From Treponema sp. (GTDB lineage Bacteria > Spirochaetota > Spirochaetia > Treponematales > Breznakiellaceae), in NCBI GenBank assembly GCA_031274035.1, contig JAISQR010000395.1, positions 1 to 37,030 of the forward strand: 37,030 nt of DNA. The letters run 5' to 3'. This document shows positions 8,333-23,982 of the stretch, piece after piece (within the stretch, counting starts at the first letter, position 1; each line of letters begins with the position of its first letter). Under the pieces are notes generated by a model. The model saw nothing but the letters and a program-made list of their open reading frames with translations, did not search any database and was not told the origin of the DNA. Made by a program: the position numbers and the translations under genes.

Positions 8333-8497
8333 CTAGGAGTTTGTTGCGCTTCGCGCATAAAATAGTATAAATATTCATAAACATGAATATTTATACCATA
8401 CAAACTCCGAATACTCGAAGAGTACAGCATGCCCGTTGATCGGGATTTTTTGCATATTTATGCAAAAAATCCACAAGTGCAACAGGCTGCTAGCAGC
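8333..8497. repeat. Family A composite palindromic repeat, copy A1
   Basis: Ends ctaggagtttgttgc / gcaacaggctgctag form an imperfect TIR (12/15). Contains the modules GCGCTTCGCGC, TATAAATATTCATAAACATGAATATTTATA and TCCCGATCAACGGGCATGCTGTACTCTTCGAGTATTCGGAGTTTG (minus strand), shared with other copies in the window. Confidence 0.85.
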
Positions 8498-21956: not shown

Positions 21957-21985
21957 AAAACAGGGAAACGAGGAGAAACAAATAA

Positions 21986-23851
21986 TTGAAGGAAAAACCG
22001 GTTTACGGAAAGGTTTGTATTATGAACTTATCCCAAAACTCGGTTAGTATTGGGATAAGCTACGGAAAAAGCGGCCAAAGGCCCGCTTTTTCCCCTAATT
22101 CAAAGGCAGCTTTCCCAAAAACTGAAGTTTTGGGAAAGCCGCTTATTATTTTGCTTTTCCTGATGTCTGTTTTGACTGTTCATGCGGAAGAACGGAATCC
22201 CATAGACTTGATACTGCTTCTGGATACCTCTGCCAGTATGAGTGAATATTACCCGCAGCTTAACGGTTATCTAACAGGGCCTTTTCTTAAAAAATATTTA
22301 CAAGTTGGGGATACTTTTCATCTAATTTCTTTTTCCAGCACGGCGCGGCTGGAGATATCACGCCGTATTCAGGAACTGGGGGATGTAGAAACCGTTATAG
22401 CACGTATCCTTCTCATGCTCCCCGTATACCCTGATTCCGATATTGCCGGCGGTCTTAATTATGCTGAGGCGTATGCCGCTTCTGTGCCGGGTGAACGCTC
22501 CAAAAAAATTGTCCTTGTATCGGATGGAAATTTAAATGGCAATTCCTTTTCGGATCAATCGCTTACCATTGATAAAATTGTTTCAGCATCCGCCCTGCGC
22601 TTAAAAAAAGATAGAATAGAACTTGAATTTGTCAGTATCCCTGAAAATATGCTTTCTTCCGTTCAAAGTCCGCCGGCAGCAACGGCTGCCAGGCCCCCCG
22701 CCTCAGAAACCCCGGCCAGGCCCGGACAGACGGTTCCCGGCTCTTCGTCTCCCGCTCCCCAAGGGGCATCCAGTCCGCCGGTAACAACGGCTCCCAGGCC
22801 GCCCGCCCCAGAAACCCCGGCCAGGCCCGGACAGACGGTTCCCGGCTCTTCGTCTCCCGCTCCCCAGGGCGGCTCCGGCCCTTCGGCAGCAACGGCTCCC
22901 AGGCCCCCCGTCCCAGAAACCCCGGCCAGACCAGGACAGGCGGCTCCCGGCTCTTCGTCTCCCTCACCCCAGGGGGGTGTTTCCGGCACACCGAGCGCCG
23001 ATATGGGCGGTATTGATAGAAATCAGACGCAGACCGGTATAGATCAGGGTGATGTTTCCGCCATACAGGGCGGCGTACCCGGTACCGATAGAGAACCGCA
23101 ACCGCAGGGCGGTGTCTCCGGCATACCGAGCAGCGGTACGGGCGGTATTGATAGAAATCAGACGCAGACCGGTATAGATCAGGGCGGAATCTCCCGCGGT
23201 CAGAACGCCGGTCTTCCATTGCCGCTCTTAATTGCGTTGGGGATTTTTGCTCTGGCTTTGATCGTCTTGATAATATTCCTTGTTGCAAGACGTTTGCATG
23301 AATCGCCGAATCGGGCGATGGCAAGCGCATCGGGTATGTCGGCCATCAAGACGAAGGATGCGAAAATGCTGGCGGAATTTGCCGTAAATCAGACACGGCG
23401 CAAATCCCGGCCCCCCTCTTCACCGCCTAAAAAGGTCTCTCTCATGGGAACAAGCGCTCCTGAGGCGGTAGATGACGGGCCTCTGATGCTATCTCTCTTT
23501 GTTGAGGATCAGAATACCGCTATAGGCAGGCGGAATATCCATGTTGTTAAAGAGGGGTATTCCTTTAGTATAGGCGGCGGAAAATCAGATTTCCTAATTT
23601 TCCTTGTACCAATACCTCCCCATATTGCCGATATCCGCTTTGACGGCAGGCAGTGCACCCTGATTCCGCGAAAGCCGCAATTTTTTCCGGATATAGGTTC
23701 CGGGCCGGTTTCTGATTGTATAGGGGAAACGATCCGTATTGTTTCACAACGGGGCTACGAGCTTTTTATCCGTATAGAGCGGTATGAGGACCCCCTGAAA
23801 GCCCTGAACCGTTTGCTCAACTCGGTAAAGGTTGTCGGATCGAATGTATAA
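21986..23851 (+). CDS. VWA-domain membrane protein with Pro-rich tandem repeats and FHA-like cytoplasmic tail
   Basis: MIDAS LILLLDTSASMSEYY; 3 x 35-aa repeats; TM LPLLIALGIFALALIVLIIFLVARR; possible FHA-like C-terminus (YSFSIGGGKSDFLI). Confidence 0.8.
   Translation: MKEKPVYGKVCIMNLSQNSVSIGISYGKSGQRPAFSPNSKAAFPKTEVLGKPLIILLFLMSVLTVHAEERNPIDLILLLDTSASMSEYYPQLNGYLTGPFLKKYLQVGDTFHLISFSSTARLEISRRIQELGDVETVIARILLMLPVYPDSDIAGGLNYAEAYAASVPGERSKKIVLVSDGNLNGNSFSDQSLTIDKIVSASALRLKKDRIELEFVSIPENMLSSVQSPPAATAARPPASETPARPGQTVPGSSSPAPQGASSPPVTTAPRPPAPETPARPGQTVPGSSSPAPQGGSGPSAATAPRPPVPETPARPGQAAPGSSSPSPQGGVSGTPSADMGGIDRNQTQTGIDQGDVSAIQGGVPGTDREPQPQGGVSGIPSSGTGGIDRNQTQTGIDQGGISRGQNAGLPLPLLIALGIFALALIVLIIFLVARRLHESPNRAMASASGMSAIKTKDAKMLAEFAVNQTRRKSRPPSSPPKKVSLMGTSAPEAVDDGPLMLSLFVEDQNTAIGRRNIHVVKEGYSFSIGGGKSDFLIFLVPIPPHIADIRFDGRQCTLIPRKPQFFPDIGSGPVSDCIGETIRIVSQRGYELFIRIERYEDPLKALNRLLNSVKVVGSNV
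22027..22140. repeat. Family C palindromic array, copy C3 (three hairpins inside the VWA-protein CDS)
   Basis: CTTATCCCAA/TTGGGATAAG (22027-22059), GGAAAAAGCGGCCaaaGGCCCGCTTTTTCC (22064-22093), GCTTTCCCAAAA/TTTTGGGAAAGC (22109-22139). Confidence 0.85.
22668..22982 (+). repeat. Three tandem 105-bp repeats (35 aa each)
   Basis: Units start at 22668, 22773 and 22878; each encodes a variant of PPAATAPRPPxPETPARPGQTVPGSSSPAPQGxS. Confidence 0.9.
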
Positions 23852-23900
23852 TACTTTACATAACAAAGAACTTAGCCATCCAATGAATCTGAGCAAAAAA

Positions 23901-23982
23901 TCCCGATCAATGGGCATGCTGTACTCTTCGAGTATTCGGAGTTTGCACGGTATAAATATTCATATTTATACCGTGCAAACTC

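Follow-up and report, generated by a model that had tools for sequence, protein, structure and literature searches.

A MITE-like palindromic element of Treponema and related spirochetes recurs in frame between the n- and h-regions of signal peptides

Rickettsia palindromic elements (RPE) are mobile palindromic sequences of 105–146 bp with terminal inverted repeats, which reside in frame in protein genes and are translated (PMC2229807, PMC10969869). YPAL of Yersinia, also referred to as RU-2, is a MITE-like element of 168 bp that forms part of the signal peptide of the exported protein YPO1552 (PMC2229807). The Correia or NEMIS elements of Neisseria are stem-loop MITEs of about 107 bp whose open frames can be fused to genes (PMC2229807), and no concentration in signal peptides is reported for them in the literature consulted.

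We describe here a copy of a dispersed, non-autonomous, MITE-like transposon family located in a Treponema sp. gene for a VWA-domain protein. The window, meaning the whole stretch of DNA analysed, comprises 37,030 nucleotides. The features of the locus are as follows.

21971–21975, + strand: Shine-Dalgarno-like AGGAG, 10 nt 5′ of the TTG start; the same gaggagaaacaaataaTTG occurs in the empty-site orthologue (L079)
21986–23851, + strand: VWA-domain protein gene with the insertion, 621 codons; Pfam VWA_2 at residues 75–181
21986–22021, + strand: signal-peptide n-region, codons 1–12, MKEKPVYGKVCI, aligned to LKKKPVCAKVRI of the empty-site orthologue
22020–22023, + strand: target duplication TTAT, left copy; the empty site in L079 reads ...GTATTATTATTTTGC
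22024–22142, + strand: MITE-like element, 119 bp, with terminal inverted repeats GAACTTATCCCAAAAC / GCGGCTTTCCCAAAAC
22027–22059, + strand: hairpin 1 of the element, 10-bp arms (from folding)
22064–22093, + strand: hairpin 2 of the element, 13-bp arms with a bulge (from folding)
22106–22142, + strand: hairpin 3 of the element, 12-bp core (from folding)
22143–22146, + strand: target duplication TTAT, right copy (from boundary analysis)
22145–22189, + strand: signal-peptide h- and c-region (IILLFLMSVLTVHAE), shifted by 41 codons

The gene starts with TTG at 21986 and its ORF translation is open from end to end, with no internal stop. The initial annotation had pointed to three back-to-back hairpins in the signal-peptide region, and these are indeed present: the block folds far beyond chance, at -52.6 kcal/mol (z = -6.96), and none of 200 shuffles folds equally well. 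No Rfam match covers 22024–22142, even at E 0.1. The same annotation described a 114-bp block that keeps the frame. The frame is kept but the size needed revision, since the unit is 119 bp and, together with its duplication, adds 123 bp or 41 codons net; as several of the element frames are often stop-free, the VWA gene remains translatable. Removing the insertion would restore a normal-looking signal peptide, as had been proposed, although the exact join is ...KVCI-IILLFLMSVLTVHAEER. In the filled gene, the two junctions give rise to residues M13 and L53. Further along, at about 22680–22960, the VWA protein includes a proline-rich linker with approximately three tandem repeat copies reading like ARPPASETPARPGQTVPGSSSPAPQG. 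The window also carries two copies of a repeat of about 77–80 bp that belongs to a different, unrelated family (23893–23969, +; 8377–8453, -), of which the first overlaps a near-perfect palindrome, GGAGTTTGCACGGTATAAATATTCATATTTATACCGTGCAAACTCC; about 40 scored copies in the same genome are 87–99% identical and a first look gave 377 candidates.

The uninterrupted signal peptide that the initial annotation suggested looking for in orthologues was found both within the genus and within the family, and no homologous segment takes the place of the insert. The same-genus orthologue (genome G001, locus L079) provides a clean empty site, KVRI-IILLFLM, with the DNA sequence gaggagaaacaaataaTTGAAGAAAAAACCGGTTTGTGCAAAGGTTCGTATTATTATTTTGCTTTTCCTGATG and the protein sequence LKKKPVCAKVRI-IILLFLMTVLTVHAEEG. 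Its flanks are nearly identical to those in the window, where the 119-bp unit and a further TTAT are added. The insert is absent from all 20 family orthologues inspected (L079 and 19 others), and the inspected relatives of two further split genes likewise have uninterrupted N-termini. The block at 22024–22142 is thus an insertion, whose mobility the empty site demonstrates base by base for the VWA gene. Hardly any credence can be given to the idea that the segment is an ancient N-terminal domain passed on vertically within the VWA family: nothing was found to support it, and it is refuted by the empty sites, including the one with near-identical flanks. It is also very improbable that a repeat was misjoined into the VWA gene during assembly. 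The source assemblies are fragmented metagenome genomes in which copies of the element are frequently found at contig ends, as might be expected of such an artefact. Against it stand the exact 4-bp duplications, the 119-bp length, the open frame, unique flanking sequence that agrees with the orthologue on either side, and the same pattern in many independent assemblies.

Members of the family have terminal repeats GAGSNNKTYCCAAAACT and 4-bp target duplications. The ends can be written as inverted repeats, GAG(C/G)NNTTCCCAAAACT or the variant ...GTTCCAAAACT. Allowing at most one mismatch, GAGSNNTTCCCAAAAC ends gave 153 matches in the element's own genome and the reversed control gave 9. A shift-tolerant boundary search found a perfect 4/4 duplication in 62 of 108 copies, compared with a mean of 2.8 and a maximum of 10 when partners were shuffled. 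Copies with matching duplications fall into size classes of 36–39, 118–120 (the dominant class) and 129–142 bp, the smallest consisting of little beyond the two ends. In these minimal members (L114 1501–1536, L117 1501–1536 and many others in genome G000) the inverted ends lie nearly back to back between 4-bp duplications, and they are so short that their handling by a transposase becomes a question. Small size, dispersal in many copies, terminal inverted repeats, target-site duplication and empty sites are together the attributes of a MITE.

A query with the element DNA matched about 40 other places in its own 5.17-Mb genome, and of 200 genomes from this bacterial family, 106 contained the element family. 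Among the matches listed in a 21-mer scan, all named records are spirochete assemblies, mostly Treponema sp. and otherwise Spirochaetaceae, Spirochaetia and one record labelled Brevinematales. Several of the isolate labels suggest genomes from termite-gut metagenomes. No match was obtained in the phage and plasmid records searched. We also considered whether the element is in general unusually stop-free. This was rejected, as the excess of open frames is modest (1.39 of 6 per element versus 0.98 of 6 in shuffles), which points to selection, and not design alone, as the source of the open frames in genic copies.

A search of 1.8 Mb of loci yielded neither an autonomous partner nor a transposase with matching ends, repeats being poorly assembled in these genomes. 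PF01609 (DDE_Tnp_1) loci in ten genomes, pairs of terminal repeats 500–3500 bp apart with 4-bp duplications, and lone terminal repeats at contig ends (L099, L112) all failed to reveal a transposase between matching ends. An IS5-like remnant of 875 bp (L152 1287–2161, genome G014) has a loosely similar end, GAGCCTGTTCAATAT, and a duplication that looks to be 3 bp (TTA); it was not accepted as the partner and is a loose candidate for the transposase lineage. A 420-bp element in the same genome (L149 646–1065) ends in GAGCCTGTTCCAAAA and is bordered by nearly matching duplication copies, ATTT/CTTT; it may be a larger relative.

Insertion sites are AT-rich, averaging 71% over 40 bp compared with 50% a few hundred bp away, and genic and intergenic copies do not differ in this respect. 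The copies catalogued in the Treponema genome are nearly all intergenic, as are most of the approximately 171 near-full copies overall (126 and 45 new). None of the latter lies in frame inside a gene body, whereas the reading frame runs through 19 copies situated in or close to an N-terminus, as judged by ORF logic and with several weak starts (TTG, or lacking a Shine-Dalgarno motif). Sixteen of the 19 are located between the n- and h-regions of signal peptides or signal-like N-termini, this status being less clear for L281, L253, L388 and L200; the remaining three are in other N-termini. The split signal peptides include MSRK^LLIILAAAALFTTGFSSC of an NMT1-like binding protein, MKKNI^IILFGVLSLALFMGTGC of an SBP_bac_8 protein, MKKPAY^LLWFLAVSFLVFAWSC of a protein with an LEA_2 domain, MRKKILVS^LYIIFLSLSCVPAFAQ, MIPAKKKR^IKTISKAALGLTLLLLASGVFGQ, MKKVFF^FFFLLFAAMLRLLSSC from the same genome as the window (C464) and that of a transglycosylase (SLT). 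The split genes encode real domains. The family has thus entered unrelated exported-protein genes in frame at least sixteen times. Outside this group, an in-frame copy occurs at codon 10 in a protein judged by eye to resemble RelA/SpoT (L252, G113:C234), so that a cytosolic N-terminus can apparently carry the element too. One additional signal-peptide copy (L483) constitutes a natural knock-out: the T of the duplication and the GA of the element create a TGA stop at the junction (MKTRIMAVI*), and the gene is broken.

Read-through was observed in 16 of 17 signal-peptide copies, against an expectation of 17% for a non-genic copy placed in a gene at random phase and orientation (p = 5e-12), and of the 19 in-frame copies, 14 have a hydrophobic stretch beyond the junction as scored by a fixed hydropathy rule, compared with 29% among 440 background genes (p = 7e-5); since the list of 17 cases was partly picked by eye, the p-values are to be taken as guides. 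The read-through also bears on where translation of the VWA protein begins. If it began downstream of the element or inside it, the element would be a 5′ untranslated or regulatory insertion and its in-frame reading incidental. An ATG does arise at the left junction (22022) with AAGG upstream, TTG (22151) and ATG (22163) come after the element, and many other copies lie upstream of genes. Yet a start at 22022 would translate the element anyway, and those downstream of it lack both a charged n-region and a Shine-Dalgarno motif. The initial annotation had named a true start downstream of 22140 as the finding that would speak against an in-frame insertion, and no convincing start codon with such a motif exists there. 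Moreover, the AGGAG-N10-TTG arrangement at 21986 is common to the window gene and its empty-site relative, AAAGGAGAA-ATG is conserved in a second split gene, and the high proportion of read-through would be unexpected were frame irrelevant. We consider a start downstream of the element or inside it to be quite unlikely.

The bias towards signal peptides can be traced in part to base composition. The first 13 codons are at least 65% AT in 51% of signal-peptide genes, compared with 19% of other genes and 2–5% of gene interiors, so that AT targeting accounts for part of it. Signal-peptide genes would then make up about half of the AT-rich N-termini, compared with the 16 of 19 observed, and the smaller excess left over may represent tolerance or benefit. 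A benefit would mean that a longer n-region, or mRNA hairpins in the first codons, tune the export or translation of surface proteins. Besides this excess, such an adaptive role would fit the stable RNA hairpins and the Lys/Arg-rich peptides inserted in the frames used. It is nevertheless unlikely. The in-frame copies occur in either orientation and use four or more frames, and hence encode unrelated peptides, which indicates that no particular element peptide is needed and makes tolerance more likely than a specific function. The insert is missing from orthologues in neighbouring species, and occurrence is therefore sporadic, as tolerated selfish DNA should be.

Alongside the transposition signature, the family, the empty site and AT-rich targeting, recurrence at the same place at least sixteen times and retained read-through were observed directly. 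The explanation we prefer, and hold to be highly probable, is that an AT-seeking MITE inserted into the 5′ end of a signal-peptide gene and was tolerated, under purifying selection, in a disposable pre-sequence. A transposase presumably acting in trans would insert the hairpin element into an AT-rich 5′ end with a 4-bp target duplication, so that 41 extra residues separate the charged n-region from the hydrophobic h-region. Translation would run through the element, Sec export would continue despite an n-region some 40 residues longer, and the extended pre-sequence would be cut off by signal peptidase I or, for lipoproteins, signal peptidase II. The mature protein is thus predicted to be unchanged, and the insert would be tolerated because its peptide joins a part that is discarded. 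AT-rich targeting would deliver the element and selection would purge those copies that disrupt the frame or are placed within mature domains. More tentatively, and with the balance of our judgement against it, the family may itself have become adapted to be translatable (41 codons, several open frames, AT-seeking), finding a refuge in the signal peptide that is cleaved off. Host signal peptidase would in that case remove a transposon-encoded peptide, and protein-level removal of selfish DNA would be a repeated genomic niche.

In-frame MITEs are already known; what appears to be new here is the recurrent splitting between n- and h-regions by one family in many uncultured spirochetes. No description of recurrent splitting of existing signal peptides was found in the literature searched, subscription journals being outside its scope. 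The split genes amount to many independent natural experiments on the length and strangeness tolerated in a signal-peptide n-region, and on the places within genes that can shelter selfish DNA. They also serve as a warning that the N-termini of exported proteins in these spirochete genomes may be mis-annotated.

The minimal 36–39 bp members resemble REP sequences and BIMEs in being near-perfect palindromes scattered between genes, but they carry terminal repeats together with target duplications of 4 bp, features not regarded as a hallmark of REP. The Correia elements differ from the spirochete element in having 24-bp ends with a TA motif at their termini. The resemblance to RPE raised in the initial annotation holds for behaviour, as both are small palindromic mobile DNA found in frame within genes (with translation of the spirochete element suggested by the retained frame), and appears not to extend to membership. 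The host is a spirochete, a bacterium unrelated to Rickettsia, there is a clear 4-bp duplication where '?' is listed for RPE, and, whereas RPE occur in conserved metabolic genes such as gmk, most spirochete copies are intergenic and those in frame are at N-termini, mainly signal peptides. None of the approximately 171 near-full copies lies in frame in the mature, folded part of a conserved protein, as is the case for RPE. The spirochete family is set apart from RPE by these features and is not shown to be a member. It appears to work like RPE and other translated MITEs (Correia, ERIC, YPAL; PMC2229807, PMC10969869), with membership shown for none of them. For signal peptides, the nearest precedent is YPAL in YPO1552: that element supplies part of a signal sequence and makes a new protein, whereas the spirochete element repeatedly separates n- from h-region in signal peptides that conserved genes already possessed.
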